This document shows, piece after piece, positions 21,807 to 41,565 of a DNA stretch of 56,680 bases. The stretch is from Taibaiella helva (GTDB taxonomy: Bacteria > Bacteroidota > Bacteroidia > Chitinophagales > Chitinophagaceae): assembly GCF_003545695.1 (NCBI RefSeq), contig NZ_QUZZ01000019.1:1-56680 (forward strand). The letters are read 5' to 3'. Below the pieces are notes generated by a model, which searched no databases, had not been told where the DNA came from, and worked only from the letters and a program-made list of their open reading frames with translations. Numbering within the stretch: position 1 is the first letter of the stretch; each line of letters opens with the position of its first letter. The translations under genes were made by a program, and so were the position numbers.

Positions 21807-21849
21807 TGCTCCGGATCAGTTTATAGTCTCAGGCGCCGCTCTAATTTTG
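21807..21849 (+). promoter_or_regulatory. Fnr-like box and -7 element of the usp/CoA-hydrolase operon
   Basis: TGCTCCGGATCA (21807-21818; one mismatch to TGAT-N4-ATCA) followed by an exact -7 element TAATTTTG (21842-21849). The box centre is 36.5 bp from the last G of the -7 element, the same spacing as at most other sites of this island. Confidence 0.55.
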
Positions 21850-21883
21850 ATCCGGAAATGTAAAAACACTTTCGATTCATGCT

Positions 21884-22705
21884 ATGAAAACCATAATTGT
21901 CCCTACCGATTTTTCCGCAGCTTCCATCAATGCAGCCTATTATGCAGCAGAGCTCGCCATGCATACCCATGCTGAAATTACCTTGCTACATGTTATAGCA
22001 ATGCCGCTTACGGTGGCAGAAGTGCCTTTGCCGATAGATAGTATCGAAATAGCTATGGGCGAGGCCAACAGGTCGCTGAAAGAGCTTAAAGAGAAGCTTG
22101 AAAGCTATAGCAATGACAAGCTCTGCATTACTTTCCGGACGACTGTGAATAGTTTCCTGGGAGAGCTCGAGAATTTTAACAGGCAAAAGAAGATCTTCGC
22201 GATGGTTATGGGAACAAGCGGTGCAGGCGCTACAGAGGCATTTTTCCTGGGTAGCTTCAGCCTTGCAGCGGCAAAACACCTTGCCCGTCCCCTTATTGTC
22301 GTTCCTCCGGGTTATCGCTTCAAAGAGATACGGAAAATAGGCCTGGCCTGCGATATGCGGAATGTATCGGAGACAGTTCCCTTCCAGGGTATAAAGGATA
22401 TATTCGAGTATTTCCCGGCGAAATTGGAGATCCTGTACGTAAGCAAACCCAAAGAAAAGATGTATCCCCAGGTATTGACGGAAACAAAGTTTATGCAAAA
22501 CAATCTTGCCTGGCTTCATCCCGAGATCAGGATCACGACCAACAACGACATAAAGCAGGGGCTGGAAGATTTCGTGAGCAAAAACAGTATAGATTTGTTG
22601 ATGTTGCTCCCTAAGGAGCGCAATTTCGTTGAAAGCATCTTTCATAAAAGTGTGACCAGGAAAATGGTGCTGCATCCGGAGGTGCCCGTCATGATAGTGC
22701 ATTGA
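21884..22705 (+). CDS. Universal stress protein, two UspA domains
   Basis: A 273-residue tandem UspA protein. Domain 1 (about 1-147) starts with Ile-Ile-Val-Pro-Thr-Asp-Phe-Ser, the standard first strand and loop, and ends with Gly-Ser-Phe-Ser-Leu-Ala-Ala-Ala and Pro-Leu-Ile-Val-Val-Pro-Pro; the Gly-Thr-Ser-Gly-Ala-Gly stretch before it resembles the ATP-binding loop. Domain 2 (about 150-273) is more divergent and ends in Val-Pro-Val-Met-Ile-Val-His. Such proteins are cytoplasmic, often ATP-binding, and induced by stress or oxygen limitation. It heads an operon with the CoA hydrolase/transferase gene 49 bases downstream, under an Fnr-like box. Two other tandem Usp genes lie at 36637-38288. 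Confidence 0.9.
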   Translation: MKTIIVPTDFSAASINAAYYAAELAMHTHAEITLLHVIAMPLTVAEVPLPIDSIEIAMGEANRSLKELKEKLESYSNDKLCITFRTTVNSFLGELENFNRQKKIFAMVMGTSGAGATEAFFLGSFSLAAAKHLARPLIVVPPGYRFKEIRKIGLACDMRNVSETVPFQGIKDIFEYFPAKLEILYVSKPKEKMYPQVLTETKFMQNNLAWLHPEIRITTNNDIKQGLEDFVSKNSIDLLMLLPKERNFVESIFHKSVTRKMVLHPEVPVMIVH

Positions 22706-22754
22706 GAAAGACACCAGGCATGCAATAGTTTTCACATTAATTCAAATACAGTAA

Positions 22755-24050
22755 ATGGATATTCATTATCAGAACGCGGACGAAGCGATACAGCTCGTAA
22801 AAAGCGGGGACAGGGTATTTATTCATGGCAGCGCTGCCACACCCCGGGTGCTGCTGAACAAGCTGCTTGCCAGGGCAGGCGAGCTTAAAGAGGTAGAGCT
22901 GACCTGTATCAGCACCTATGGCGATCTTGCGTGGAACCGGCCTGAAGTGCTTGACAGCTTTTACCTCAATTCCCTGTTTGTTTCAGGCAATGTACGTGAA
23001 TGGGCGAACGGTAGTCATGGCAATTACGTGCCGGTATTCCTGAGTGAGATACCTGGCCTGTTCCGGGAAGGTATCTTGCCGCTCGATGTAGCGATCGTAC
23101 ATGTATCGCCGCCCGATCAGCATGGATATTGCACGCTGGGGACCTCGGTAGACGCGGCACTGAGCGCCGTACGCAATGCGCCGGTAGTGATCGCGCAGGT
23201 GAATCCACGTATGCCAAGGGTACTGGGCGACGGGATCATTCATTATTCGGAATTTACAGCAATGGTATGGGCCGACAGTCCCTTGCCGGAGGTGGATTAC
23301 AGTGCCGGTGCGGATGAGCGGGCGGAAAAGATCGGCAGACATGTTGCCGGTTTGATTGAAGACGGCGCCACACTCCAGATGGGTATCGGCAGCGTGCCGG
23401 ATGCCGTACTGAAGCAGCTTACGACGCATAAGGGCCTGGGCGTGCATACGGAGATGTTTTCGGACGGACTGATACCGCTGGTAGAAAAAGGTGTCATTAC
23501 CAATGAGCATAAAGTAATACGTCCGGGTAAGATCGTAAGCAGCTTTATCCTGGGTACAAAGAAAGTATACGATTTCGCAGACAATAATCCCTACGTGAGT
23601 TGTATGGATGTGGCTTTCGTGAATGACAGCGACATTATCCGCAGAAATCCTAAAGTAGTAGCGATCAATAGCGCTATAGAGGTAGATTTTACAGGGCAGA
23701 TCTGTGCCGATTCCATCGGCACTTATCAATATTCGGGCATCGGCGGCCAGATGGATTTTATGCGCGGCGCTTCCCTGTCCGCAGGCGGGAAACCCATTAT
23801 TGCTATGCCTTCCACAACGAAGAAAGGCGTATCCCGTATAACACCCTTTCTGCGGCAGGGTGCCGGTGTGGTAACCACGCGTGGACATGTACATTATGTG
23901 GCTACGGAATATGGCGTCGTCAATCTGTACGGTCGTAACATGGAGCAGCGGGCCCGCCTGCTGATCAGCATTGCTCACCCCGATCACCGTGAAGCTTTGG
24001 AGCAGGCTTACTACCAGCGCTTCGGTAAGCTGTACACCGTATTGAAATAG
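22755..24050 (+). CDS. Acetyl-CoA hydrolase/CoA-transferase family protein
   Basis: A 431-residue member of the acetyl-CoA hydrolase/transferase family (class I CoA-transferase fold). The proposed catalytic glutamate, which forms the glutamyl-CoA thioester in this family, is Glu233 in His-Thr-Glu-Met-Phe-Ser-Asp-Gly. The Gly-Ile-Gly-Ser-Val-Pro motif and the Gly-Ile-Gly-Gly-Gln-Met-Asp-Phe-Met-Arg-Gly CoA-binding loop are intact. Length matches relatives such as 4-hydroxybutyrate and acetate CoA-transferases. It may interconvert acetate and acyl-CoAs during oxygen limitation, an inference from its co-transcription with a stress protein behind an Fnr-like box. The exact acyl donor cannot be decided from sequence. 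Confidence 0.88.
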   Translation: MDIHYQNADEAIQLVKSGDRVFIHGSAATPRVLLNKLLARAGELKEVELTCISTYGDLAWNRPEVLDSFYLNSLFVSGNVREWANGSHGNYVPVFLSEIPGLFREGILPLDVAIVHVSPPDQHGYCTLGTSVDAALSAVRNAPVVIAQVNPRMPRVLGDGIIHYSEFTAMVWADSPLPEVDYSAGADERAEKIGRHVAGLIEDGATLQMGIGSVPDAVLKQLTTHKGLGVHTEMFSDGLIPLVEKGVITNEHKVIRPGKIVSSFILGTKKVYDFADNNPYVSCMDVAFVNDSDIIRRNPKVVAINSAIEVDFTGQICADSIGTYQYSGIGGQMDFMRGASLSAGGKPIIAMPSTTKKGVSRITPFLRQGAGVVTTRGHVHYVATEYGVVNLYGRNMEQRARLLISIAHPDHREALEQAYYQRFGKLYTVLK

Positions 24051-24138
24051 CCTTTTTATGCTTGACGGGTATAACGCCTGCCTGGAGCGATGACTTTTTT
24101 GATGATACTGGGCAAGAATAGCACACCTAGAGTAAGTA

Positions 24139-24171
24139 GGCAGCGCTTGCGTGTCCAACGTAAGCGCTGCC
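24139..24171. terminator. Bidirectional terminator between convergent genes
   Basis: 13-base arms GGCAGCGCTTGCG (24139-24151) and CGTAAGCGCTGCC (24159-24171), one mismatch-type pair, seven-base loop, located between the CoA hydrolase (+) and the nuclease gene (-). Confidence 0.8.
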
Positions 24172-24188
24172 TGTTAAAATGACTTACA

Positions 24189-25031: not shown

Positions 25032-25072
25032 GGTCTGCAGGCATTAAAATGTATTTTCCCTGATAACATAGT

Positions 25073-25456: not shown

Positions 25457-25488
25457 AATAAATCAATGTATTTGCTAAATATTAGTTA

Positions 25489-26241: not shown

Positions 26242-26272
26242 AACGATTCGTTTTTGAATTAAGTAACCGCAG

Positions 26273-26315
26273 CAAAGTAAGACCTGTTTCAGCCTGTGAA
26301 AAATGATGACGATCA
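26273..26315 (-). promoter_or_regulatory. Fnr-like box and -7 element of the SDR operon
   Basis: TGATGACGATCA (26304-26315, full match to TGAT-N4-ATCA). On the reverse strand a -7-like TTACTTTG (26280-26273, one mismatch) ends 36.5 bp from the box centre and 31 bases before the ATG. Confidence 0.6.
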
Positions 26316-26408
26316 TAATATGGGCCAATGCCAGTCAGCCTGCGCCTGCGCGCGAAAAAAAATTGCGTCGGGGCCGGTCGGTTTATCTGCTTGCATCATG
26401 ATCAATAC

Positions 26409-26452
26409 TGATCCAGATCATTGCGCCCCGCATGCCGGCTCTGTTATTTTTG
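26409..26452 (+). promoter_or_regulatory. Fnr-like box and -7 element of the hsp20 operon
   Basis: TGATCCAGATCA (26409-26420, full match) followed by an exact -7 element TATTTTTG (26445-26452). Centre-to-end spacing is 37.5 bp. It is divergent from the SDR-operon site about 100 bases away, so the intergenic region carries two separate boxes. Confidence 0.65.
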
Positions 26453-26522
26453 TAACGGATGGATTGATACCCATTCTGCTTTATTCCAATTTTCTGTTAA
26501 CTATTAAACAAAGGAGAACGTT

Positions 26523-26963
26523 ATGTCAAAGCACTCATTAATCAACCTACGGGAGATATTGCCCGAAACGACTGACGATTTTTTTGCTTCGTGGAACGAA
26601 TGGTTCCGCAGGAATTTTTTACTTAGCCGGATGACCGTACCTGCGCTGAACATGTCCGACAATAAAGATCAATATAAAGTAACCGTAGCTGCTCCCGGCC
26701 TGGAAAAGGAAGACTTCGATATCGAAGTAGAAGACAACGTGCTAACCATTAGCGCGACTTCGGAGAGGGAGCATGATGAGAATAAAAAGAAATACAGGCA
26801 TAAGGAATACAGCTATTCCAGCTTTTCCCGTTCCTTTACGCTACCGGCTGATGTTCGCGCCGATGGGATCGATGCCACCTACGATAATGGTATCCTTACT
26901 TTGAAGCTGCCCAAAAATGAAGCAGCAAAACCCGCTGCCGGAAGAAAAGTAAAAGTGAAGTAA
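26523..26963 (+). CDS. Hsp20/alpha-crystallin small heat shock protein
   Basis: A 146-residue small heat shock protein. The alpha-crystallin domain spans about residues 38-135: Tyr-Lys-Val-Thr-Val-Ala-Ala-Pro-Gly, the dimerising Glu-Arg-Glu region, Phe-Ser-Arg-Ser-Phe-Thr-Leu-Pro, and the signature Asn-Gly-Ile-Leu-Thr-Leu-Lys-Leu-Pro-Lys. The end carries Val-Lys-Val-Lys, which can serve as the Ile-x-Ile-type tail motif. It is an ATP-independent holdase in the cytoplasm. The start follows an AAGGAGA-like sequence directly upstream. It heads an operon with the BON-domain gene 42 bases downstream and is preceded by an Fnr-like box, so oxygen- or redox-controlled expression is inferred. Confidence 0.95.
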   Translation: MSKHSLINLREILPETTDDFFASWNEWFRRNFLLSRMTVPALNMSDNKDQYKVTVAAPGLEKEDFDIEVEDNVLTISATSEREHDENKKKYRHKEYSYSSFSRSFTLPADVRADGIDATYDNGILTLKLPKNEAAKPAAGRKVKVK

Positions 26964-27755: not shown

Positions 27756-30284
27756 ATGTTTTTACCTACAATTCCGGAAGCAGAAGGATTGACCGATCAG
27801 ATGGTTGAAGCTGCAAGAGTACAATATGGAAGCAATGAGCTCTCCTATAAGAAGGAGCATCGCCTTATCATTTTTCTGCGGAGCATTATAGGTGAGCCCA
27901 TGATTATTCTGCTGCTGGCTGCTGCGCTGATTTATGCCATCAACGGGGCACTGGCCGATAGTTTTTTCCTGCTTGCCGCGATCCTGCTGGTTGCGACGAT
28001 TTCCTGGTACCAGGAACGCAGAAGCCGTAATGCATTAAACGCATTGAAAAAGCTGTCACAACCTTTATGTAAGGTGATCCGCAGCGGATCGGAGAGAGCT
28101 GTCGGCAGCGACGAACTCGTAGTAGGAGATATCATTATTATGGAAGAAGGTTCGATCGTTCCTGCCGATGGCGTTATTATCCATGCCAACGATTTCTCGG
28201 TGAATGAATCCATGCTCACGGGAGAATCGCTTCCTGTATTTAAAAATACAGTATTGGAAGATCATTTTGTATACCGGGGAACAATGGTGACCAGTGGACA
28301 GGCATTGGTAAGAATTACGGCAACGGGTAACCGCACGCGGCTGGGTACTATTGGTAAAAGCCTGGAACGGATCGGCAACGAGCGGAGCCCTTTGGAAACC
28401 CGCATGCGGAATTTTGTCAGGAAAATGGCGGTTGTCGGAGGTGTTGTTTTTCTCGCGATATGGGGCATTAATTATTGGCGAAATGCGGAGTTCCTGGACA
28501 GTCTGCTAAAATCGCTTACCCTGGCCATGAGTATACTTCCGGAAGAAATACCTGTAGCCTTTACTTCTTTTATGGCTTTGGCAGCAATGCGGCTGATGCG
28601 GAAAAGGATTGTCGTGAAGCAAATAAAGACTGTCGAAACACTGGGCAGCGCTACGGTTATCTGTACGGATAAAACCGGGACGATAACCCGGAATAAAATG
28701 ACGCTGGCTGCAATATATGAAGCCGGATCGGCCCAGATACAGGACCCCGGAGCACCGCTGAATGAAGCGGAATGCGAGCTGATACGGATGGCAATGTGGG
28801 CCAGCGAGCCACTGCCCTTCGATCCTATGGATATTGCCTTGCACGAGGCCTATGCCCGGCTGTTTGCCGAAGATGAGCGTGCTGTCTATACCATGATCCA
28901 CGAATATCCGCTTAGCGGAAAGCCTCCTATGATGACCCATGTTTTCGGGGATAGTTCCGGTCATCGCATTATTGCAGCGAAAGGAGCGCCTGAAGCACTG
29001 ATCGATGTATGTGGCTTGGATGAAGGTAACAAGGAGCGGGCGTATGCAGCTATAGATCGGCTCGCTCAGCAGGGCTACAGGGTCCTGGGTGTAGGGTCTG
29101 CGATATATCCCGGTAATGAATTTCCTCAACAGCAGCAAGACCTTCCTTTCTCCTTCATGGGATTGGTCGCCTTTAGCGATCCTCCGAAAGAAAATATTGA
29201 TGCGGTATTAAAAGATTTCTACAAAGCTGGAATCGAGGTAAAGATCATAACAGGCGATAATGAGATAACTACCCGTTCCATTGCCCGCTCTATAGGATTG
29301 CAGGGCTATGACAGAAGCATTGGCGGAGCCGAGCTGATGAAGATGAATGACCATGACCTGGAACGGTGTGTGTCGGATAAAATGATATTTACCCGGATGT
29401 TTCCCGAAGCCAAGCTACGCGTGATTAATGCTCTGAAGCGGACCGGAGCCATTGTGGCTATGACCGGCGACGGTATTAACGACGGGCCGGCGCTCAAAGC
29501 CGCGCATATTGGTATTGCAATGGGTAAAAAGGGAACGGAGATCGCCAGGCAGGCAGCTGCGCTCGTGCTGCTGGACGATGATCTTACCGGAATGGTGGAG
29601 GCTATTGCGATGGGACGCAGAATTTATACCAATCTGAAAAAAGCGATACGCTATATCATATCTATACATATACCCATTATCCTTACCGTACTTGTTCCCT
29701 TGTTATTCAACTGGCGATACCCCAATATACTGTCCCCGGTTCATGTGATCTTCCTGGAGCTGATTATGGGGCCTACCTGTTCTGTCATTTATGAAAATGA
29801 ACCCATGGAGCCTAATGCAATGCAGCAAAAGCCGCGGCCATACAGTGCCGACCTTTTCAACTTCAGCGAACTGGCTTTAAGTATAGTACAGGGACTGGTC
29901 ATCGCTCTTGCCGTATTGGCATCCTATTGGTATGGTGTTTTCCGCGGATACGATATAGCAGCAGTCCGTACACTTGTCTTTATCACCCTCGTTTCTGCCA
30001 ACATAATGCTTACATTAATCAACAGGAGCTTCTATTACCCGGTTTGGGCCACCTTGCGCTACAAGAACCGGATGATCCCCTTTATCATCGGTCTTACCAT
30101 TACATTGGTTGTGCTGGTGATATGGCTTCTACCGGTAAGAAATTTCTTCGGACTGACATTGCTGCCTTTATCTGAACTCTGCGGCAGCATATTGCTGGGC
30201 TTATGTTCGGTGGCCTGGCTGGAGTGTTTAAAATGGCTGCGGCGCAAGAAAACGCTTTCTGATGATCATTACATAAGCGCATGA
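27756..30284 (+). CDS. P2-type cation-transporting ATPase
   Basis: An 842-residue P-type ATPase of the Ca2+/Na+-type (P2) subfamily. It has an N-terminal cation-ATPase domain, the actuator motif Thr-Gly-Glu-Ser, helix M4 with Pro-Glu-Glu-Ile-Pro, the phosphorylation site Asp305 in Asp-Lys-Thr-Gly-Thr-Ile-Thr, nucleotide-binding Lys-Gly-Ala-Pro-Glu and the hinge Gly-Asp-Gly-Ile-Asn-Asp. About ten membrane helices are visible, six of them after the hinge. Length agrees with prokaryotic P2 enzymes. The ion is not certain; Pro-Glu-Glu-Ile-Pro is usual for Ca2+-like pumps. It has no clear Fnr-like box of its own, only a weak -7-like TATCCTTG at 27732. A similar association of P2 ATPase, Hsp20 and Usp genes is known from the mycobacterial DosR regulon (ctpF). 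Confidence 0.93.
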   Translation: MFLPTIPEAEGLTDQMVEAARVQYGSNELSYKKEHRLIIFLRSIIGEPMIILLLAAALIYAINGALADSFFLLAAILLVATISWYQERRSRNALNALKKLSQPLCKVIRSGSERAVGSDELVVGDIIIMEEGSIVPADGVIIHANDFSVNESMLTGESLPVFKNTVLEDHFVYRGTMVTSGQALVRITATGNRTRLGTIGKSLERIGNERSPLETRMRNFVRKMAVVGGVVFLAIWGINYWRNAEFLDSLLKSLTLAMSILPEEIPVAFTSFMALAAMRLMRKRIVVKQIKTVETLGSATVICTDKTGTITRNKMTLAAIYEAGSAQIQDPGAPLNEAECELIRMAMWASEPLPFDPMDIALHEAYARLFAEDERAVYTMIHEYPLSGKPPMMTHVFGDSSGHRIIAAKGAPEALIDVCGLDEGNKERAYAAIDRLAQQGYRVLGVGSAIYPGNEFPQQQQDLPFSFMGLVAFSDPPKENIDAVLKDFYKAGIEVKIITGDNEITTRSIARSIGLQGYDRSIGGAELMKMNDHDLERCVSDKMIFTRMFPEAKLRVINALKRTGAIVAMTGDGINDGPALKAAHIGIAMGKKGTEIARQAAALVLLDDDLTGMVEAIAMGRRIYTNLKKAIRYIISIHIPIILTVLVPLLFNWRYPNILSPVHVIFLELIMGPTCSVIYENEPMEPNAMQQKPRPYSADLFNFSELALSIVQGLVIALAVLASYWYGVFRGYDIAAVRTLVFITLVSANIMLTLINRSFYYPVWATLRYKNRMIPFIIGLTITLVVLVIWLLPVRNFFGLTLLPLSELCGSILLGLCSVAWLECLKWLRRKKTLSDDHYISA

Positions 30285-30324
30285 CGGGAATCATTGCCTT
30301 TTACCCCCGCCCGGAGCAATTTTG
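30282..30324 (+). promoter_or_regulatory. Fnr-like box and -7 element before the L,D-transpeptidase
   Basis: TGACGGGAATCA (30282-30293, one mismatch; it overlaps the ATPase stop codon) and -7-like CAATTTTG (30317-30324, one mismatch). Spacing is 36.5 bp. This site was found by applying the spacing rule from the stronger sites. Confidence 0.5.
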
Positions 30325-30338: not shown

Positions 30339-31661
30339 ATGGATCTTTTAGCCGATATAGCGCAGGGGGTAAAGGTATGGCCGGGCAGGATGAAGCACCT
30401 CATGATGACCGCGGCCTGCATAGGCTGTGTGCTAACCGGCGGAGCCAGAGGATTAACGACGGCAGGCGATCCGGACATGGTTGCGACCTTTTACACGTCG
30501 CGCAGCAACAAGCTGCTGTGGTATGCCGACAGCTCCGGCCGTATACTCAGGTACAATTTGCTGGGTTTGCTAAGCCGGTGCGGAAGCCAGGGTTTAGAAC
30601 CGGATAAATACTCGTTGAATATCCTGCAGGCTTACGAACAGCAGCACGATCAGAGAACAGATCAGGCTGCAGAGGCCGATCGACGCTATACCAGGGCCTT
30701 TATCAACTACCTGGAAGACCTGTTGCATGGAGCATATGCCGATGGCATCAGTGATGATGCGCTTTTAAAAAAAGAGCAAAGCAGAGACCAGAGGCAGATA
30801 CTGGACCTGTTGGCCAGGTGCACCGACAGTGCAGCAATGAATTCTGCTGTAAAAAGCCTGGAGCCCGGAGATCAGGAATACCTGCTGTTAAAAAACGCTC
30901 TGAGCGAAGCGCTGGACAAGGGGCAGCAGGATACTATCTGCTTGCTGAAAACGGCTCTGAATCATTACCGGCGCATTCATCATCCGCATTATCCAAAATG
31001 TGTTGAAATAAATATTGCCTCCGGAATACTACGTTATTATGAGCATGATAGTCTTATGCTGAGCATGAAAGTGGTTGCCGGCAGGCCTTCTACGCCTACA
31101 CCCCGGTTCTCCGCTTATTGCGATGAAGTGATCTTGTATCCTTACTGGAATGTACCCCACAGCATAGCGGTAAATGAATTCCTGCCGCTTTGCAAGAAAC
31201 TGCCGGGTGTGCTGGATTTTATGAACATGCAGGTATTGGACAGGAAGGGACATATAGTAGATCGCAATAAAATAAACTGGCAGCTGTATAACAGGAATAA
31301 TTTTCCTTACCGGTTCCGGCAGGCTACGGGCTGCGACAATGCGCTGGGTGTGATCAAATTCAACCTGGATAGCCCCTATGGCGTCTACCTGCATGATACC
31401 AACAACAAATTGTCGTTTGCAGCAAAGAAACGCTATTTCAGCCATGGGTGTATCCGTTTGGAAAAACCTATGGAACTGGCGGATCAGCTGCTCGGCCGGA
31501 AGCTTGATCATGAATTTCTTGAAACCTGCCTGAAACAGGAGCAACCGCAAACCTTGCAGCTGTCTGCTCCGGTACCTGTATTTGTTGTCTATATCAGGGC
31601 TGTTGCCGATGATCCGGGGGGTAATGTAACTTATTATGATGATGTATATAATTTGAAGTAA
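30339..31661 (+). CDS. L,D-transpeptidase (YcbB/YkuD family)
   Basis: A 440-residue cell-wall enzyme. The N-terminus carries a hydrophobic export segment around residues 20-37; ATG 30390 (residue 18) would give a more standard signal peptide and is a good alternative start. A helical region follows, resembling the N-terminal part of YcbB-type enzymes. The catalytic YkuD domain (about 220-390) has the full signature: Tyr-Leu-His-Asp-Thr, then Ser-His-Gly-Cys-Ile-Arg-Leu-Glu with the nucleophilic Cys. These enzymes make 3-3 peptide cross-links in peptidoglycan in the periplasm and support survival in non-growing cells. A box-like promoter lies just upstream, so it probably belongs to the same regulon. 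Confidence 0.9.
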   Translation: MDLLADIAQGVKVWPGRMKHLMMTAACIGCVLTGGARGLTTAGDPDMVATFYTSRSNKLLWYADSSGRILRYNLLGLLSRCGSQGLEPDKYSLNILQAYEQQHDQRTDQAAEADRRYTRAFINYLEDLLHGAYADGISDDALLKKEQSRDQRQILDLLARCTDSAAMNSAVKSLEPGDQEYLLLKNALSEALDKGQQDTICLLKTALNHYRRIHHPHYPKCVEINIASGILRYYEHDSLMLSMKVVAGRPSTPTPRFSAYCDEVILYPYWNVPHSIAVNEFLPLCKKLPGVLDFMNMQVLDRKGHIVDRNKINWQLYNRNNFPYRFRQATGCDNALGVIKFNLDSPYGVYLHDTNNKLSFAAKKRYFSHGCIRLEKPMELADQLLGRKLDHEFLETCLKQEQPQTLQLSAPVPVFVVYIRAVADDPGGNVTYYDDVYNLK

Positions 31662-31693: not shown

Positions 31694-31758
31694 TGATCTC
31701 GATCATCAGATGGAATCATTCTTATTATTAATCTCATAGTTGTCTTGCTTTACTTTTG
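31694..31758 (+). promoter_or_regulatory. Fnr-like box and distant -7 element (58.5 bp class)
   Basis: TGATCTCGATCA (31694-31705, full match) and exact -7 element TACTTTTG (31751-31758). Spacing is 58.5 bp, 22 bp (two helical turns) more than the common class, as in class I versus class II Crp/Fnr promoters. Confidence 0.6.
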
Positions 31759-31772: not shown

Positions 31773-32150
31773 ATGCAAAAGGAATATAAGTTGAACAGCT
31801 CGTATTATATAAAAGAGGGCAGGAAATGGCTAAACGCTTTAAATGATCTGCGAGCAGAGAATATCCGCCTTAAGGATCAGCTTTCGGAAGCGATCAGCCG
31901 GGAGGTCAGCCTTGATTTTGTAGAGCAGGCAGATCGGTTCCAGCAGCGTTTTGTGGAAAAGGACCAGGTGCTGGACCTGCTCCGCCATGAAATAAATATC
32001 GTGCTAGCCCAAATCGCCGGGCGGGAAATAGTTCCCGCCGATGAACGGCAGTATCAATTGCTGGAAAAAGATATGGAACACCTGATCCACGAGTTTCATC
32101 AAATGAAGCTGTCATTTGCCGACTTTCTTATAAAACGTAAAACCGGTTAG
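31773..32150 (+). CDS. Small helical protein, paralogue of the one at 25073
   Basis: A 125-residue charged, helical protein of unknown function. The central helices align with those of the 25073-25456 protein, and length and helix layout match. It contains no cysteine and no enzyme motif. Heptad-like spacing of Leu/Ile suggests a helical bundle. It stands alone behind a strong Fnr-like box and an exact -7 element. The gene end overlaps the end of the convergent receiver-Crp/Fnr gene by four bases. Two copies of this family in one regulon suggest a real but undescribed stress role. Confidence 0.75.
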   Translation: MQKEYKLNSSYYIKEGRKWLNALNDLRAENIRLKDQLSEAISREVSLDFVEQADRFQQRFVEKDQVLDLLRHEINIVLAQIAGREIVPADERQYQLLEKDMEHLIHEFHQMKLSFADFLIKRKTG

Positions 32151-33208
32151 TTGAACATCTGCTCCAGCTTCTTAAAATTAAGGATCCGTATCCTGCTTCC
32201 TTCCAGGCTTATCAGTTTCTCATCTTTCAGCTCGCTCAGCATCCGTATCAGGGACTCTTTGGCCACACCGGCTATCGATGCCAGGTTTTCGCGTGAAAGA
32301 TCGATCTGGAATTCCGGATCGTTCTGCGTATTGTATTTTCTGTATAGCAGCACCAGGGTGTCGGCTACTTTTTTTCGTAAAGAATTATAGGCAATAGCCA
32401 GCAACTGATCTTCTTTGTCATCGATATTACGCGCCAGTATCCCGATAAATTTTTTCATCACAACCGGATTACTGCCCAGCAGCTCCTCGAATTCGGCGCG
32501 GGGAATGATCGCAAGATCCGTATCTTCCAGCGCCTCCGCCGTTTCGCGATAGGTCTTACCTTCCATCAGCGGAATATACCCTAGAAAATCACCCTCGTTA
32601 TATAAACCGATGATAAGCTCTTTCCCGTCCTCATTCCGCTTGTAGGTCTTTACCTTGCCCTTTTGAATATAGAACAGACGGGAGGGGTGATTGCCTTCTG
32701 AATAAATTACCTGCTTCTTCTTATAGCGATTGATATTTCTGCCTTCTTTTAGCTCATCCAGATGATCTTTGCCGGAGTTGATGCCGATGAGCTCGTTGAT
32801 CCCTTGCAAGTTTTGCGGTAGGGGCTGCCTGAGCTGCTCTGCTTTTTTTAGCCGTATCTCTATTGCATTCAGCAGCTCCGTACCATCGAAAGGCTTGGTG
32901 ATATAATCGTCTGCACCCATTTCCATTCCCTTCCTGATCTCGCTTCTTTCAGATTTTGCCGTCAGGAAAATAAAGGGAATACCCTGCAGTTCGGGATTCT
33001 TCTGGATCATATGCAACACCCCGTAGCCATCCAGCACGGGCATCATGATGTCGCATATAATGAGGTCCGGTTTTTCTCGGGAGGCCGCAGATACGCCTTC
33101 CTTGCCGTTTTCGGCAGTATGTACTTCATAGCCTGCAAGATCCAGGATCTCCGCCATATTCTCTTTTATGTCGGTATTGTCCTCAATGAGTAATATTTTC
33201 TTCTTCAT
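32147..33208 (-). CDS. Receiver-Crp/Fnr fusion response regulator
   Basis: A 353-residue transcription factor from ATG 33208. Residues 3-120 are a receiver with Glu9-Asp10, phospho-acceptor Asp53, Thr in Phe-Leu-Thr-Ala and Lys in Ile-Thr-Lys-Pro-Phe. Residues about 150-270 are a cyclic-nucleotide-binding-type beta-roll (Tyr-Ser-Glu-Gly, Gly-Asp-Phe-Leu-Gly). Residues about 280-345 are the Crp/Fnr winged helix. The recognition helix Lys317-Glu318-Ser-Leu-Ile-Arg322 keeps the Glu and Arg that contact the G-A core in Crp (Glu181, Arg185) and Fnr (Glu209, Arg213). No N-terminal Fe-S cysteine cluster is present, so oxygen or redox input would come through phosphorylation. It overlaps the upstream kinase gene by 26 bases, which implies translational coupling and pairing. 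It is the natural candidate for reading the Fnr-like boxes of this island. Confidence 0.92.
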   Translation of the reverse strand: MKKKILLIEDNTDIKENMAEILDLAGYEVHTAENGKEGVSAASREKPDLIICDIMMPVLDGYGVLHMIQKNPELQGIPFIFLTAKSERSEIRKGMEMGADDYITKPFDGTELLNAIEIRLKKAEQLRQPLPQNLQGINELIGINSGKDHLDELKEGRNINRYKKKQVIYSEGNHPSRLFYIQKGKVKTYKRNEDGKELIIGLYNEGDFLGYIPLMEGKTYRETAEALEDTDLAIIPRAEFEELLGSNPVVMKKFIGILARNIDDKEDQLLAIAYNSLRKKVADTLVLLYRKYNTQNDPEFQIDLSRENLASIAGVAKESLIRMLSELKDEKLISLEGSRIRILNFKKLEQMFN

Positions 33209-34796
33209 AATTCGTAACGGGAAAATGGAGTTCAAACGTAGTGCCTTGCTCCAGCAGGCTTTTGCAGGTAATGGTACCGTTCATCAATTCGGTGTATTTG
33301 CTTACGATATGTAAGCCCAGGCCGGTGCCCTGTATATTGGTCGCGTTCGTTCCGCGAAAGAAACGTTGGAACAGGTGCTGCTGGTCTCCTTCGGAGATGC
33401 CGATACCTTTATCGGTTATGGTCAATGCCAGGGAGCGATGGTCCAATCTGCTTTGTAGCTCAATCCTTGCGCTTTCGGGGGAGAACTTAATGGCATTGGA
33501 CAGTAAATTCATAACAATATGCTTCATCAGGGAAGAGTCAAGTGCGACCAGACTCTGGCCTGTGTGCCTGTAATGTATATGCTGTCCTTTTTTAAATAAA
33601 CCCGCCAGCTCGCTGATGATCTGCTCCAGGTGCTGCCTGATATCGAAAGTAGTAGTGCGGACCTGTATCTTTCCTTCTTCGATCTTACCTACCGAAAGGA
33701 AATCGTTCAGGATATCGGTAAGCATGTTCACAGACGAGACGATACGTTGCACATGCTTTTCTCTTTTGGGATGGTCCTCTTTTTCTTTATACTGAGATAC
33801 CAGGTAGGCCGAAGAAAGTACGGTGCTGAGTGGTGTACGGAATTCATGTGAAGCCATAGAGACAAACCTGGATTTAAGCTCGCTCAGCTCTTTCTCCTTT
33901 TCAAGCGCGATCCGTAGATCGGTCTCTGCTTTTTTCCGTTTGGATACATCCATAGCTATGCCCAGGTAGCCTTCTATATCGCCCTGTGTGTTGCGCATGG
34001 CCGTAAAAGTCTGCGATACGGGAAACCGGTTTTGCCTGCTGTCTATATAAGTTAGCTCATGCTCGTTGGATTGACTGTTGCCCGCTTTTTCAATAAGGTA
34101 ATCAAGTGTGATTTCTTCATTGGCAAAAAAGACCGAAGGGGTCTTTACACTGATCAGTTCAGATGCTGTATAGCCCAGCATTTTCTCGGCTGCGGGATTG
34201 AACATTTTAATCACGCCATCGCTATCCGTTACGAATATGATCGCTTCGGCATGATCCCATATATTATTGAGAAAGGTATTGATGCGGTTCAGCTCAACAT
34301 CCTTGGCTTCCGTTTCCGCAATAAGCGCAGCCAGTTGTTTTACAGTGCTGGTGAGCGTCAACGTTCGTTCGTCGATCTTATGTTCAAGCTCCTCGTTAAG
34401 CTTCTGTAAGGCTTGTTCGGCTTCCTTGCGCTTGGAAATATCGCTCAGAAAAGCAATAACATATTTGCCCTGTTCCGTCTCATAGTTACCCAGGCTTACT
34501 TCTACAGGGAATTCCGTGCCGTCTTTGCGTGCTGCGTAGAGATCCATGCCCAGCCCCATAGGACGGCTTTTGGGATGTTCGTTATAATGCTCCACATGCT
34601 TTACATGCCGGTTGTGGAACCGCTGAGGGATCAGCTTTTCAATACGCTGATGCAGCAGCTCCCCTTCCGCATAACCGAATTGTTCCAAAAGGAAAGGATT
34701 GACCAGCACAATTTTCCCCTGCTCATCTGCTACCAGAATGCCCATCGAGGCATTGATAAATAGGGCATCAAATCCAATGCCGGTATCTCTGTTCAT
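33183..34796 (-). CDS. PAS-PAS histidine kinase with FixL-like first PAS
   Basis: A 537-residue soluble kinase (no membrane helix) from ATG 34796. PAS1 (about 8-125) has the run Ile-Pro-Gln-Arg-Phe-His-Asn-Arg-His64 followed by Arg-Pro-Met-Gly and Arg-Lys-Asp-Gly-Thr-Glu-Phe-Pro. By eye it aligns with the heme PAS of FixL, and His64 falls on the FixL heme ligand (His200 in Bradyrhizobium). The FixL distal Arg220 is a Met here, and non-heme PAS domains with a similar sequence exist. A coiled coil (125-172) leads to PAS2 (173-290), HisKA with His317 in Ser-His-Glu-Phe-Arg-Thr-Pro, and a complete HATPase domain (Asn box, Asp-Lys-Gly-Ile-Gly-Ile, Gly-Thr-Gly-Leu-Gly-Leu). A longer upstream frame overlaps the LOG gene and is not homologous. 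It overlaps the receiver-Crp/Fnr gene. Confidence 0.9.
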   Translation of the reverse strand: MNRDTGIGFDALFINASMGILVADEQGKIVLVNPFLLEQFGYAEGELLHQRIEKLIPQRFHNRHVKHVEHYNEHPKSRPMGLGMDLYAARKDGTEFPVEVSLGNYETEQGKYVIAFLSDISKRKEAEQALQKLNEELEHKIDERTLTLTSTVKQLAALIAETEAKDVELNRINTFLNNIWDHAEAIIFVTDSDGVIKMFNPAAEKMLGYTASELISVKTPSVFFANEEITLDYLIEKAGNSQSNEHELTYIDSRQNRFPVSQTFTAMRNTQGDIEGYLGIAMDVSKRKKAETDLRIALEKEKELSELKSRFVSMASHEFRTPLSTVLSSAYLVSQYKEKEDHPKREKHVQRIVSSVNMLTDILNDFLSVGKIEEGKIQVRTTTFDIRQHLEQIISELAGLFKKGQHIHYRHTGQSLVALDSSLMKHIVMNLLSNAIKFSPESARIELQSRLDHRSLALTITDKGIGISEGDQQHLFQRFFRGTNATNIQGTGLGLHIVSKYTELMNGTITCKSLLEQGTTFELHFPVTNYEEENITH

Positions 34797-34845
34797 GAAG
34801 TGTATATTGGGTGTCACAAATATACCATAATTCGGCAGGTTATGG

Positions 34846-35583
34846 CTATTCACCCAGGAGCGCAAGTTTATGAAATGCTTTTTTCCTTCCTTCGGCATAT
34901 TTTTCAAGGGCCAAATGTTTAATATGATCCAGGGCTTCTTCGATCGAATCTGTGAACAATACATATTTCATATCCTCCGCCCCGATCATATGTTCGGCAA
35001 GCAATTGGTGGAACAAAGGCATTAAGGGCTCCCAATACTCTTTTCCGAAGATAATGACGGGGAAATCGATTATCTTATGCGTTTGTATAAGGGTAAGCGC
35101 TTCAAAAAATTCATCCAGGGTGCCAATCCCGCCGGGCATGATGACGAAGGCGTTTGAATATTTGAACATAAGCACTTTCCTGACGAAAAAATAATGGCAA
35201 ACGAACCATTTGTTCATGTAAGGATTGGGATGCTGCTCCTTTGGCAATCGAATATTACAACCTACCGAGTATCCCCCGGCTTCCATCGCGCCCCGGTTAG
35301 CGGCTTCCATAATACCCGGGCCGCCTCCGGTGATCACGGTAAAGCCCAATCCCGCCAATCCTCTTCCCATTTTACGGGCATCTTTGTAATATTCGGAATC
35401 TTCCTTTACGCGCGCAGACCCGAATATAGCCACACATGGTCCTACGAAATGTAATACCCTGAATCCCCGGATAAACTGCCATAAGACTTTCACCGAAAAC
35501 CAAAGCTCCAAAATGCGCGACCGCGGCCCTTCAAGAAATATTCTTTCACTGCTGCTGCCTTTCCTGTTCCGGCCTTTAAGCAT
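34846..35583 (-). CDS. LOG-family (TIGR00730-type) protein
   Basis: A 245-residue Rossmann-fold protein of the LOG/lysine-decarboxylase-like family. It has the phosphate-binding Gly-Gly-Gly-Pro-Gly-Ile-Met-Glu-Ala and the signature Pro-Gly-Gly-Ile-Gly-Thr-Leu-Asp-Glu-Phe-Phe-Glu. Known members are nucleoside 5'-monophosphate phosphoribohydrolases (cytokinin-activating in plants). An N-terminal extension of ~45 residues is rich in basic residues. It is the first gene of the operon with the PAS kinase, 49 bases upstream of it. A role in nucleotide salvage is possible; why it is tied to the two-component system is unclear. Confidence 0.9.
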   Translation of the reverse strand: MLKGRNRKGSSSERIFLEGPRSRILELWFSVKVLWQFIRGFRVLHFVGPCVAIFGSARVKEDSEYYKDARKMGRGLAGLGFTVITGGGPGIMEAANRGAMEAGGYSVGCNIRLPKEQHPNPYMNKWFVCHYFFVRKVLMFKYSNAFVIMPGGIGTLDEFFEALTLIQTHKIIDFPVIIFGKEYWEPLMPLFHQLLAEHMIGAEDMKYVLFTDSIEEALDHIKHLALEKYAEGRKKAFHKLALLGE

Positions 35584-35652
35584 GAGTACAAATTTTCGAT
35601 AAAGATCAGGAGACCATCGCTCGCTGCAGTTGATGACGATGAATGCTTTTGC

Positions 35653-35695
35653 TGATTGATGTCATTGACTGAAATACCGTGCTGCTATAATTTCG
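35653..35695 (+). promoter_or_regulatory. Fnr-like box and -7 element of the 35717 operon
   Basis: TGATTGATGTCA (35653-35664; one mismatch, the mirror image of TGAC-N4-ATCA) and -7-like TAATTTCG (35688-35695, one mismatch). Spacing is 36.5 bp. It was found by the spacing rule. Confidence 0.45.
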
Positions 35696-35716: not shown

Positions 35717-36127
35717 ATGGAAATTTATATTATCGAAGATGACCTGGTCAGCAATATTCAACGGGAATTCAGAAAGTGGTATCCTTATCTGAAGCTCCAG
35801 TTCTATAAGACCAGCCACAGGGAAGGGGAATCATCGGGCAAAGCGGACAGGATCAGTTCTGAACTGCCTCTCTCCGAGGTAACCATGTTTCATACCGGCG
35901 GAAAGATCAATATAGATCCTGAAAGGACCGTAGCCCAGGTCGAGGCCGACTTCTTACATCAATTCAGCTTATGTGTCCAGGTCATGCGGCAATCGGGCGG
36001 ATTGTGGCTACAAACGACCGATACCGATCATTGGACATTGCAGCAGCAGAATGAGGAAGGCCGCGTCCACAGCATACCCCTGGAAAGCGAAAAGCCTGCG
36101 GATTTTGATCTGCAGGACTTCAATTAG
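35717..36127 (+). CDS. Uncharacterised 136-residue protein
   Basis: A soluble 136-residue protein without a family I recognise. The N-terminal strand Glu-Ile-Tyr-Ile-Ile-Glu-Asp-Asp superficially recalls a receiver start, but no phospho-acceptor segment follows. The C-terminal half has a well-formed helix (Phe-Leu-His-Gln-Phe-Ser-Leu-Cys-Val-Gln-Val-Met) and a Trp-containing segment. It is followed 21 bases later by a divergent Hsp20-like gene and preceded by an Fnr-like promoter, so it likely belongs to the stress regulon. It is divergent from the LOG-kinase-regulator operon. Confidence 0.7.
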   Translation: MEIYIIEDDLVSNIQREFRKWYPYLKLQFYKTSHREGESSGKADRISSELPLSEVTMFHTGGKINIDPERTVAQVEADFLHQFSLCVQVMRQSGGLWLQTTDTDHWTLQQQNEEGRVHSIPLESEKPADFDLQDFN

Positions 36128-37452: not shown

Positions 37453-37463
37453 ATCATGAGGAT

Positions 37464-38288: not shown

Positions 38289-38303
38289 ATCTACATTTTT
38301 TGC

Positions 38304-38346
38304 CAAAAGTATTGTCCCCTTTTTCCCAATGCAATGATCCGGATCA
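38304..38346 (-). promoter_or_regulatory. Perfect Fnr-like palindrome and -7 element of the usp pair
   Basis: TGATCCGGATCA (38335-38346) is a perfect 12-base palindrome. On the reverse strand an exact -7 element TACTTTTG (38311-38304) ends 36.5 bp from its centre and 15 bases before the ATG at 38288. Confidence 0.7.
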
Positions 38347-38420
38347 GGCTCCTTGCTGATCTGCGGCCATAGCACGGGATGCCGGCCCGGCCTGTAAGAG
38401 AAATATACACGATCCGGGAA

Positions 38421-38485
38421 TGATCTTTATCAGCTTTCTGCTTCGCGTAGCTCATTTTTTACCTCGGATGGCTGAAGCAATTTTA
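38421..38485 (+). promoter_or_regulatory. Fnr-like box before the hemerythrin-like/cco operon
   Basis: TGATCTTTATCA (38421-38432, full match) and, 58.5 bp away, a weak -7-like CAATTTTA (38478-38485; two mismatches to TAnnTTTG). The spacing equals that of the two other distant-class sites. If real, translation must start at 38501 or later, not at the ATG at 38420 inside the box. Confidence 0.4.
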
Positions 38486-38660: not shown

Positions 38661-39094
38661 AATTAAGCGATGTCTATTATCCCTGTATGTTGACCAAATT
38701 CCGTTTTCTGACGAAAATGCTGGAGGAAACCAGGATTGCCGGCGCCGAAACCGGGATGACATTGATGCAAAAAGTAAAGCAGGAGTTCGAGTGCATTCTG
38801 CAAAAAGAAGAGGTATTGGTATTTCCTGTATTGAAGATCCTGGAGCAGGAAAGCAAAACGACAGATTGCAAATTGTTCAAGTTGACGAAGCTGAACTATA
38901 CTATTGCACTTTCAGCTATTCAGCAGTTGAAAGAGCTGTTGTCGGCTTATAAGCAGGAACATGTTTTGCATCTTATGATCAGGATAAAGGAAATGGAAAC
39001 GGACTTTATTCAATTGCAGAAGGCAAAGGAAAAATATTTATTCAGCAGGTTCAAAAGCTGCAAAAGCAGCTGTAAAGTATATGAGCAACAGTAG
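38501..39094 (+). CDS. Degenerate hemerythrin-like protein at the head of the cco operon
   Basis: A 197-residue helical protein (up to 224 if an upstream ATG is used). Residues 1-57 are a duplicated helix pair. Residues about 58-112 follow the layout of RIC/ScdA-type hemerythrin domains: a helix where the first His pair should be reads Val-Tyr59-Tyr60-Pro, and the His-Leu-x-Lys-Glu-Glu-x-x-Leu-Phe-Pro motif reads Cys98-Ile-Leu-Gln-Lys-Glu-Glu-Val-Leu-Val-Phe-Pro109. The metal-binding histidines are thus replaced while the fold signature and Glu103 remain. The C-terminus is Lys/Cys-rich (Cys-Lys-Ser-Ser-Cys). The end overlaps ccoI by 14 bases, so it is co-translated with the oxidase genes. It may be a metal-free sensor or an assembly helper. 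Family assignment is by pattern only. Confidence 0.6.
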   Translation: MASPQLYRNTEQLQSIMDQLNDSFYINVKLMAPQKLYSDMEQLQSFTVDRFMDQLSDVYYPCMLTKFRFLTKMLEETRIAGAETGMTLMQKVKQEFECILQKEEVLVFPVLKILEQESKTTDCKLFKLTKLNYTIALSAIQQLKELLSAYKQEHVLHLMIRIKEMETDFIQLQKAKEKYLFSRFKSCKSSCKVYEQQ

Positions 39095-41525
39095 AACGGA
39101 GCAACAGGCACGCTGTTATCATTGCGGTGAAATCTGCGATAGCCACAAGCGGGACATCGGAGCTAAATCCTTTTGCTGTAACGGATGTCGCAGTGTGTAC
39201 CTGCTGCTTAATGAACATGAGCTGAATGATTACTATTGTCTGAATGAACGGCCCGGTGCGACAATGAAAACCGTCCAACCTGAAAAATTCCGATTTCTCG
39301 ACGATGCGTCCATAACGGCCGGGCTTCTTGAATTTTCCAATGGGAAACAGGCGCAGGTCACCTTTTACCTGCCCCAGATCCATTGCAGCTCCTGTCTTTG
39401 GCTCCTGGAGCACCTGGCGCAGCTACACCCCGGGATTATTTCTTCCCGTGTACTTTTTTCGGACAAAGAGCTGTCCGTAACCTTTAAGCCGGATGAGCTT
39501 TCCCTGCGGCAGCTGGCAGAGCTGCTGACCCGTATAGGCTATGAGCCGCATATAACTCCCGGCCAGGTGGAGCCACAGGAAAGGAAAGGATATTCTTCCA
39601 GAAATGCAGCCTATAAGCTGGGCATTACCGGCTTCTGCTTTGCCAATATTATGCTGATCAGCTTTCCTGAATATCTTGGACTACACAGGAATGAAAGCGT
39701 TGCACTGGTAACTTTCTTTCGCCTGGTCAGTCTCGGGTTATCGCTGCCTGTTGTTTTTTATGGGGCCGGGGAGTTCTTCAGGAACGCTTTCTTAAGCTTC
39801 AGGCAGAGATATATCAATATCGATGCGCCCATTGCCCTGGCCATTTCCATCACCTTCCTGCGCAGCGTCTATGAGATTGCGGGCGGGACCGGGGCCGGTT
39901 ATCTCGACAGTATGAGCGGCATTGTTTTCTTCATGCTGCTCGGACGAACCCTTCAGAACCGTACCTATAGTACTTTGAAATTTAACAGGGATTACAAGTC
40001 TTATTTCCCGGTGGCAGTAAGCAGGATAAAAGAGGCAATGGAGGAGACCATTAAAATACAGGATATACAGGAAAAGGATGTATTGCTGCTCCGGCACCAG
40101 GAGATCATACCTGCAGACGGTATGGTATCAAAAGGTAAAGCTTCTGTCGATTACAGCTTTATTACCGGTGAAAGCCAGCCGGAGTACCTGTCGGCCGGCG
40201 ACCTGGTCTATGCTGGTGGCAGAATAATTGGGAATGCGGTGGAAATAGTTGCGCTCAGGGATTTCCGGCAGAACAGCTTTACCCGGCTCTGGAATAATAA
40301 GGCATTTGATCGGCAGCAATCCGATAAAGAAACAATGACCACCGTTATCAGCAAATATTTTTCACTGGCGGTGATTCTTATCGCCCTGGCCGCTTTTGCC
40401 TACTGGCAGTGGCACATACCGGAACGATCCTGGAACGCGCTTACTGCGGTGTTGATCGTCGCCTGTCCCTGTGCGCTCTTGCTCACCACAACCTTTACCA
40501 ACGGCCACATGGTGGCGTTTTTTGCTGCTCACGGCCTTTTCCTCCGTAACGCCCAAGTGATCGGGGATATGGCAAAGGCGGACCATATAGCTTTTGATAA
40601 AACAGGAACCATAACAGAAGCGGAGGACAGCGCGCTTCTGGTATCCAGGATGTTGCTGGACGTGGCAGAAAAGGAATCGTTCCTATCTGTAATGTCTCAG
40701 TCGATCCACCCGCTGGCAAGGATCATTACAGCCCATTACCGGTATACAGGCGCTCTTATACCGGAGCATATAAAAGAAATACCCGGTAAGGGTATGGAGG
40801 CCTGGCTGGATGACCGCTATTTCAGGATCGGGAGCAGATCATTTGTATATGGAGAGGACAGCGGAAGGGGACAGGAGCAAACCGAAGTATATGTAGCGGT
40901 GGATGGGATTGTAAAAGCACATTTTCTTTTTGAACATCATCTTAAGCAGGGCGTGCCGGAGCTGCTCCGGCGCCTGGCAGGCTATAGCCTATCCATGGTC
41001 AGCGGCGACAATAGCAGCAGCAAGGCGCAGATGCGTTCCCTGTTCCCGGAAGATACACAGCTTTTATTCCGGCAAACACCACAGCAAAAGCTGGAGCACA
41101 TACAGTCCCTGCAGGCAAGCGGGAAGAAGGCAATGATGATCGGTGACGGGCTCAATGATGCAGGGGCCCTGAAGCAAAGTAATGTCGGTGTATCCGTAGT
41201 GCAGCATTCTTTTTCTTTTTCACCGGCCTGCGATGCTATACTTGAAGGAAGCAGGCTCAGTGATCTGCCTGCATTCCTGAAGATGGCAAAAGCCTCGCAG
41301 AAGCTTATTCTCTATGGATTTGCCTATTCCATAGTGTTCAACATCATAGGTATCGGCTATGCGGTAAGCGGCCACCTGTCCTCCTTGCTGGCAGCTATTC
41401 TGATGCCATCCTCTTCCCTGGGTATTATGCTGATCGCTTATGCGGGTACCCGGTGGATAACGGGAAGACGGTTCGCTAAATATTCCGGCATGCTGAAAGC
41501 TGACGAAGATCATCTTTTAGCTTAA
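39081..41525 (+). CDS. ccoI: CcoI-type copper-transporting P1B ATPase
   Basis: An 814-residue heavy-metal P-type ATPase of the FixI/CcoI group. The N-terminus has a Cys-rich metal-binding region (Cys-Tyr-His-Cys and Cys-Cys-Asn-Gly-Cys) found in cbb3-linked ATPases, then an HMA domain with Cys-Ser-Ser-Cys. Core motifs are Thr-Gly-Glu-Ser, the metal-site Cys-Pro-Cys in helix 6 (Ala-Cys-Pro-Cys-Ala-Leu-Leu), Asp506 in Asp-Lys-Thr-Gly-Thr-Ile-Thr and the hinge Gly-Asp-Gly-Leu-Asn-Asp. CcoI supplies copper for the CuB site of cbb3 oxidase. It overlaps the hemerythrin-like gene by 14 bases and is followed by ccoS. Its last codons contain an Fnr-like box for the downstream genes. Confidence 0.95.
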   Translation: MSNSRTEQQARCYHCGEICDSHKRDIGAKSFCCNGCRSVYLLLNEHELNDYYCLNERPGATMKTVQPEKFRFLDDASITAGLLEFSNGKQAQVTFYLPQIHCSSCLWLLEHLAQLHPGIISSRVLFSDKELSVTFKPDELSLRQLAELLTRIGYEPHITPGQVEPQERKGYSSRNAAYKLGITGFCFANIMLISFPEYLGLHRNESVALVTFFRLVSLGLSLPVVFYGAGEFFRNAFLSFRQRYINIDAPIALAISITFLRSVYEIAGGTGAGYLDSMSGIVFFMLLGRTLQNRTYSTLKFNRDYKSYFPVAVSRIKEAMEETIKIQDIQEKDVLLLRHQEIIPADGMVSKGKASVDYSFITGESQPEYLSAGDLVYAGGRIIGNAVEIVALRDFRQNSFTRLWNNKAFDRQQSDKETMTTVISKYFSLAVILIALAAFAYWQWHIPERSWNALTAVLIVACPCALLLTTTFTNGHMVAFFAAHGLFLRNAQVIGDMAKADHIAFDKTGTITEAEDSALLVSRMLLDVAEKESFLSVMSQSIHPLARIITAHYRYTGALIPEHIKEIPGKGMEAWLDDRYFRIGSRSFVYGEDSGRGQEQTEVYVAVDGIVKAHFLFEHHLKQGVPELLRRLAGYSLSMVSGDNSSSKAQMRSLFPEDTQLLFRQTPQQKLEHIQSLQASGKKAMMIGDGLNDAGALKQSNVGVSVVQHSFSFSPACDAILEGSRLSDLPAFLKMAKASQKLILYGFAYSIVFNIIGIGYAVSGHLSSLLAAILMPSSSLGIMLIAYAGTRWITGRRFAKYSGMLKADEDHLLA

Positions 41526-41565
41526 GCAGCGGCATTTCCCATGCGGCCCTGCCAATGCAATTTTG
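41501..41565 (+). promoter_or_regulatory. Internal Fnr-like promoter before ccoS-ccoNO
   Basis: TGACGAAGATCA (41501-41512, one mismatch, inside the end of ccoI) and -7-like CAATTTTG (41558-41565, one mismatch). Spacing is 58.5 bp, identical to the site at 31694. It would let the oxidase structural genes be induced separately from ccoI. Confidence 0.5.

Follow-up and report, generated by a model that had tools for sequence, protein, structure and literature searches.

Predicted promoters of the island

The DNA analysed here, referred to as the window, comprises 56,680 nucleotides of the Taibaiella helva contig NZ_QUZZ01000019.1 and represents 1.2% of the T. helva genome (4.82 Mb). It harbours a stress island with genes for universal stress proteins (usp), a small heat-shock protein (hsp20) and a cbb3 oxidase (cco), together with genes for a kinase and for a protein joining a receiver to a Crp/Fnr part (receiver-Crp/Fnr protein, or fusion), which is the probable regulator of the island. 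The predicted promoters of the island share one geometry, in which two TGA-N6-TCA boxes with centres 22 bp apart precede a -7 element of the type TAnnTTTG.

A preliminary description of the window had listed nine TGAT-N4-ATCA-type 12-mers, and our box scan recovered all of them at their coordinates, five as perfect boxes (26304, 26409, 31694, 38335, 38421) and four with one mismatch. Their distances to the -7 element were also reported correctly at 9/9 sites: the spacer N between box and -7 element is 23 (36.5 bp from the box centre) at 21807, 26304 (minus strand), 30282, 35653 and 38335 (minus strand), 24 at 26409, and 45 (58.5 bp) at 31694, 38421 and 41501. The -7 element matches TAnnTTTG exactly at four sites, with one mismatch at four and with two at 38421. 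Taken alone, the boxes are weak evidence, because the window contains 52 with at most one mismatch compared to 27.6 expected from shuffles (approximately twofold enrichment), from which nine had been picked. The evidential weight rests on the spacing between box and -7 element. Genome-wide, there are 202 perfect boxes, seven of them in the window. Exact boxes combined with an exact TAnnTTTG occur five times at spacers of 10-40 (N=23 twice; 24, 25 and 34 once each) and five times at 41-70, including two at N=45, one of which lies inside the window.

The preliminary description had missed a partner box 22 bp away from the listed ones. At this offset, the nine sites showed partner scores (of 6 letters) of 4, 4, 3, 5, 4, 5, 4, 4 and 4, adding up to 37/54, whereas the sums at 215 other offsets averaged 13.9 (standard deviation 3.9, maximum 27). 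A partner with at least 4/6 letters was present at 8/9 sites, compared to a base rate of 4% in the window. Since the partner lies in the predicted direction, the sites with the long spacer represent a strong distal box with a degenerate proximal box, and those with the short spacer the reverse.

Conservation of the tandem geometry in related loci

For comparison, we used 80 loci (1.41 Mb) around relatives of the receiver-Crp/Fnr protein, namely the best 80 among at least 582 such proteins; many of the loci are titled Chitinophagaceae, and two (L017, L060) are from one genome. These relatives share kinship, so site counts do not represent independent events. TGAT-N4-ATCA had 43 TAnnTTTG neighbours over 110 spacings, with 23 at N=45, 9 at N=23 and no more than two at any other spacing. 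For TGA-N6-TCA, within which the form TGAY-N4-RTCA is preferred, 72 at N=45 and 48 at N=23 were counted among 205 neighbours. None of eight unrelated or inner palindromes used as control boxes in these loci occurred at N=23 or N=45.

Centred 22 bp downstream of the N=45 box, a second TGA-N6-TCA emerged, with T, G and A of its left half present in 67, 62 and 67 sites and T, C and A of its right half in 70, 53 and 66 sites out of 72. This partner at the N=23 position was exact in 34/72 and had at least 4/6 letters in 71/72 N=45 sites (control offsets 34/576). Conversely, an upstream partner was exact in 34/48 N=23 sites and had at least 4 letters in 42/48 (control offsets 19/384). Among 166 pairs of TGA-N6-TCA within 120 bp, 72 were exactly 22 bp apart, and the next-commonest distance comprised 6 pairs. 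A third box 22 bp further upstream is rare, with only two TGA-N6-TCA at N=67.

Combining both boxes and the -7 element into one 18-letter tandem pattern resulted in 34, 92 and 138 matches at up to 0, 1 and 2 mismatches, whereas twelve altered geometries reached at most 1, 4 and 15 (0 to 4 at up to one mismatch). At up to three mismatches, there were 180 matches compared to 95 and 47 after a one-base shift of the -7 element, and the distance to the -7 element is therefore less sharp than that between the boxes. In addition, boxes overlapping TAnnTTTG at offset -18 were seen at 13 sites, which we estimate to be roughly the expectation from shared letters.

The gene following the 138 sites with up to two mismatches was ccoNO-like in 24, the kinase gene in 17, hsp20 in 16, similar to the 31773-32150 gene in 9 and to the 35717-36127 gene in 9, usp in 7 and a Cu-ATPase gene in 6 cases. 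No homologue from the window was found downstream at 42/138 sites; judged from their sequences, these include genes for a di-iron repair-like protein and a rhodanese-metallo-hydrolase.

Matrix scan of the window

The preliminary description had proposed a weight matrix with control sequence as a check. A matrix built from the 138 relatives' sites, none of them from T. helva, gave 12 matches of at least 12 bits in the window, including 8/9 listed sites, and none in 30 first-order Markov copies. Of the other four matches, two are the same boxes on the opposite strand, and two are images, shifted by one base, of two further promoters that had also been missed (20862..20927 and 21686..21751; Table 1). 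With the -7 element placed one base further (spacing 24), these two and the hsp20 promoter obtained the scores given in Table 1. No window match at 12 bits was left when the distance between the boxes was altered by 1, 2, 5 or 11, and changes of up to 10 in the spacing to the -7 element left 0 to 10 window matches, several of which were shadows of the same boxes. Across four other stretches of the genome (59 kb, chosen for holding other matches), the matrix found one match of at least 10 bits.

Table 1. Promoters and signalling genes in the window. Mismatches refer to the 18-letter tandem pattern; aa, amino acids.
Feature	Position	Strand	Distal box	Proximal box	-7 element	Mismatches	Bits	Remarks
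Tandem promoter	20862..20927	-	20916-20927	20894-20905	TACTTTTA 20862-20869		30.2	Spacer 24
Tandem promoter, divergent from usp	21686..21751	-	21740-21751	21718-21729	GATCTTTG 21686-21693		29.5	Spacer 24; open reading frame 21071-21688 downstream (ATG 21583)
Tandem promoter of usp	21785..21849	+	21785-21796	21807-21818	TAATTTTG 21842-21849	3/18	20.4	Gene 21884-22705
Tandem promoter of SDR gene	26273..26337	-	26326-26337	26304-26315	26273-26280		19.5	Probable start ATG 26241
Promoter of hsp20	26387..26452	+	26387-26398 (weak, 3/6 letters)	26409-26420	TATTTTTG 26445-26452		18.9	Spacer 24; gene 26523-26963
Tandem promoter of L,D-transpeptidase gene	30260..30324	+	30260-30271	30282-30293	30317-30324	2	26.4	Gene 30339-31661
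Tandem promoter of 125-aa protein	31694..31758	+	31694-31705 (strong)	31716-31727 (degenerate)	TACTTTTG 31751-31758	2	31.7	Gene 31773-32150
Receiver - cNMP-binding domain - HTH_Crp regulator	32147..33235	-						362 aa (Pfam); phospho-acceptor D62, recognition-helix E327, R331
PAS-PAS-HisKA-HATPase kinase	33183..34964	-						Pfam; probable true start M57
Opposite-strand reading of the 35631-35664 box pair	35600..35664	-			35600-35607 (weak)	3	22.7	Possible autoregulatory promoter of LOG-kinase-regulator genes
Tandem promoter of 136-aa protein	35631..35695	+	35631-35642	35653-35664	35688-35695	2	26.6	Gene 35717-36127
Tandem promoter of usp gene	38304..38368	-	38357-38368	38335-38346	TACTTTTG 38304-38311		23.3	Probable start ATG 38288
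Tandem promoter of possibly hemerythrin/RIC-like protein	38421..38485	+	38421-38432 (strong)	38443-38454 (degenerate)	CAATTTTA 38478-38485	4	20.0	Probable start ATG 38501
Tandem promoter of cco genes	41501..41565	+	41501-41512 (strong)	41523-41534 (degenerate)	CAATTTTG 41558-41565	3	25.0	ccoNO 41677-43878

The probable regulator and the adjacent kinase

The regulator belongs to the Crp/Fnr superfamily based on PF00027 and PF13545, both above cut-off, and a best PDB match to 2gau. It is likewise a response regulator (PF00072), with D62 and K114 found in 81/81 aligned sequences; E327 and R331 of the recognition helix are invariant in the same 81. Fnr-like, the term used in the preliminary description, suits the box but not the fused regulator, since its Crp/Fnr part lacks the Fnr cysteine cluster and its sole cysteine, C61, lies in the receiver. 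The cAMP contacts of Crp, E72 and R82, are replaced by Y220 (Y in 70 and H in 11 of 81) and Y229 (81/81), respectively, and T or K stands in place of Crp R180.

In 78/80 loci, a homologue of the kinase (>100 bits) is encoded on the same strand no more than 600 bases upstream. Comparing the first PAS domain (PAS1) of the window kinase with PDB, 13 of the 14 strongest sequences were FixL or DosP and one a multi-sensor kinase, followed by two weaker ones. H120 aligns with the heme-binding histidine of FixL and DosP and is kept in 64/67 rows having a residue there (12/79 rows are gapped). The rhizobial FixL equivalog NF041777 was not reached (108.6 bits compared to a cut-off of 850). PAS1 is a probable heme domain, with O2 (or NO or redox) as its likely signal.

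Distribution across genomes

Throughout the T. helva genome, the tandem pattern with up to three mismatches occurs at 11 places (reversed control 2), eight of which, representing seven box pairs, lie in the window. A local regulon of Crp/Fnr type, linked to the receiver-Crp/Fnr protein, is well supported, with the restriction that two further places adjoin single-domain, paralogous Crp genes on contigs C11 and C31. The last one, at C27:507371 (3 mismatches), is probably a chance match. The exact-box matches at C33:150721 and C30:139005 were also taken as chance, as the genes look unrelated and the stretches contain nothing of at least 10 bits. Further exact-box matches are located at C28:217096, C30:124762, C32:246652 and C31:115170, the latter before a gene that, read from its sequence, is DUF983-like.

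Two of the Crp/Fnr paralogues without a receiver have 235 amino acids (C11:254286-257350, L085; C31:106001-126000, L081) and are those beside the tandem sites. Methyltransferase-like genes lie near both, and GcvH-like and SulP-like genes near the one on C31, as read from the sequence. A cysteine-rich Fnr-like protein is encoded at C28:84041-84256 (L099) beside a chloride-channel-like gene, and its cysteines could hold a cluster.

Among 119 genomes of the order, which overlap with the 80 loci, we detected 319 tandem sites when allowing up to one mismatch, spread over 87 genomes, and none with the reversed control. Placing the -7 element an additional 4 bp away left seven sites in six genomes (reversed control 2). 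Across 148 genomes of the phylum, 22 had a site (reversed control 1), and 18 of these belong to the same class; single matches in the distant members G165, G179, G220 and G247 were taken as chance. Counting the fusion as present at E values up to 1e-60, 68 of the 75 fusion-bearing genomes of the order contained tandem sites (mean 3.7), compared to a mean of 0.9 in the 44 fusion-less genomes, both uncorrected for kinship.

Some genomes stand out individually. In G101, a genome of the same family with an expanded regulon, 28 tandem sites were counted; contig C21, which carries its receiver-Crp/Fnr gene, accounts for 12. Two matches to the receiver-Crp/Fnr protein were found in 8/119 genomes (G040, G104, G107, G117, G102, G008, G052 and G103). 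In G016, boxes 23 bp apart (C2:108206-108271) lie less than 2 kb from the receiver-Crp/Fnr gene and possibly represent a spacing variant.

Proposed mechanism and alternative explanations

With a probability of roughly two in three, the island has one promoter type with tandem boxes 22 bp apart, most likely driven by the phosphorylated receiver-Crp/Fnr protein together with the adjacent probable heme kinase. Under this single promoter type, two Crp/Fnr-fold dimers would occupy the two boxes, of which the proximal one ends 23 bp (sometimes 24) before TAnnTTTG. As this element was placed at -12 to -5 by start-site mapping in Flavobacterium psychrophilum (accessible part of PMC9723704), the centre of the proximal box is predicted at about -41.5, where class II boxes lie, and that of the distal box at about -63.5. 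Since 22 bp correspond to about two helical turns, the two dimers would sit on one face of the DNA. The proximal dimer would contact RNA polymerase and the distal one help cooperatively, which could explain why degeneracy is tolerated in one of two paired boxes. Phosphorylation of D62 by the kinase would switch the protein on, presumably for activation rather than repression, and a low-oxygen-type signal is plausible.

Several findings weigh against this reading. Tandem sites are present in 19/44 fusion-less genomes and missing, at up to one mismatch, from 7/75 fusion-bearing ones. A single-domain Crp relative (open frame of 193 to 291 amino acids) occurs in 18/19 fusion-less genomes with sites, compared to 9/25 genomes with neither fusion nor sites. 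The recognition helix of both 235-amino-acid paralogues is similar to that of the fusion (E...R), and these paralogues may share or own the sites of the window. Regarding the geometry, a partner box is absent from 6/48 relatives' N=23 sites; shifting the -7 element by one base still gave 45 and 43 relatives' matches of at least 22 bits compared to 150, partly due to T-runs; and boxes 23 bp apart occurred at 34 sites in 25 of the 119 genomes (reversed control 0). The 22-bp spacing is therefore dominant but not absolute, and a minor 23-bp variant probably exists. On the sensory side, M140 of the window kinase takes the place of an arginine in the FixL heme pocket; this position is M in 35 and L in 14 of 79 sequences, and the ligand may therefore not be O2 alone.

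Sites in fusion-less genomes and beside the T. helva paralogues indicate that the tandem geometry is not confined to the fusion. The boxes of the window could accordingly be read by the single-domain paralogues on C11 and C31 or by the cysteine-rich Fnr-like protein on C28, leaving the fusion a minor or different part, and in one fusion-less genome (L131), a Crp-like gene indeed has a Cu-ATPase-like gene and a tandem site next to it. We consider this unlikely, as most matches of the T. helva genome cluster in the window around the fusion, sites are about four times more numerous in fusion-bearing genomes, 17/138 relatives' sites lie in front of the kinase gene in the operon that also encodes the fusion, and the C28 protein, read from its sequence, has K instead of R at the second recognition position. 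In the best reading, a Crp/Fnr subfamily uses the tandem boxes, the fusion forms one branch of this subfamily and controls the island, and the paralogues may share in that control.

An arrangement of one activating and one repressing box, as described in the accessible part of PMC7888657 for rhizobial fnrN with its two anaeroboxes, would also account for paired boxes. Such dual control is improbable here, because both boxes lie upstream of the -7 element at a fixed helical phase and a repressing box would be expected closer to the start site. Still less probable are the separate class I (58.5 bp) and class II (36.5 bp) promoters of the preliminary description. Both spacings are real, and the few solitary N=23 sites would fit, but nearly every N=45 site of the relatives and all three in the window carry a second box at the N=23 position, and the partner test in the window points the same way. 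Finally, a chance or compositional pattern, which the merely twofold enrichment of single boxes might suggest, can practically be dismissed, as it was not reproduced by altered geometries, the reversed pattern, Markov copies or offset tests.

Relation to known regulatory systems

Mycobacterial DosR controls a dormancy regulon with a heme kinase, hypoxia as signal, usp and hsp20 targets and repeated boxes, acting through a NarL/FixJ-type DNA-binding domain. The Taibaiella island resembles it in the probable heme kinase, the targets and the repeated boxes, whereas the DNA-binding domain of DosR is unrelated to the Crp HTH. The E. coli Fnr/Anr family is characterised by the Crp fold, an E...R recognition helix, the TGA half-site, the class II distance and cluster-binding cysteines. 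The fusion shares the Crp fold and the recognition helix, and the boxes that it probably reads share the TGA half-site and the predicted class II distance, but it lacks the cysteines and carries a receiver in front. With E. coli Crp, it has the cNMP-binding fold and the HTH in common but differs at the cAMP-contact positions.

A further close parallel is the rhizobial control of fixNOQP by FixL-FixJ-FixK (and hFixL-FxkR-FixK), where a heme-PAS-like kinase, a receiver and a Crp/Fnr-fold activator likewise act before a cbb3 oxidase operon. According to the accessible part of PMC7888657, the rhizobial anaerobox is TTGAT-N4-ATCAA, which resembles the Taibaiella TGA-N6-TCA with its preferred TGAY-N4-RTCA form, and a small heat-shock protein gene lies under such a box in Rhizobium leguminosarum (accessible part of PMC11784457). 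Unlike the rhizobial systems, Taibaiella has receiver and Crp/Fnr part in one polypeptide, boxes in 22-bp tandem and the Bacteroidota -7 element. A two-protein switch would therefore replace the three-protein cascade.

Among the top-ranked open-licence papers covered, including passages of PMC4999443, PMC8510549, PMC11784457, PMC7888657 and PMC9723704, we found no description of a receiver-Crp/Fnr fusion or of the 22-bp tandem in Bacteroidota, and we found this literature sparse on low-oxygen sensing by Bacteroidota outside gut genera. Two Crp/Fnr-fold dimers 22 bp apart might constitute the activation unit and a general low-oxygen promoter design of a Bacteroidota order, with the receiver fusion having compressed FixL-FixJ-FixK into two proteins controlling it; we put this forward as a tentative idea with slightly less than even chances. 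The results suggest a way in which cbb3 oxidase, small heat-shock and universal stress genes could be connected to a kinase in a distant phylum, with no Fnr-type cluster involved. Furthermore, the tandem geometry is so strict that candidate regulons can be predicted for many genomes of the order using only their sequence. The analysis provides candidate sites, a candidate regulator with its phosphorylation site and a putative heme sensor.

Further observations on the window

Although 20862..20927 is among the best-scoring tandem promoters of the window, no clear protein gene lies downstream, and a small protein, an RNA or a decayed gene is possible. The hemerythrin/RIC-like assignment is based on a weak match to TIGR03652 (E value 0.0076), far below the cut-off. 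The stress island also includes a gene for an Mrr-type restriction endonuclease (PF04471; 24189-25031), and two very long open frames, at 2089-8484 (2131 amino acids) and 11161-19629 (2822 amino acids), lie beside it.

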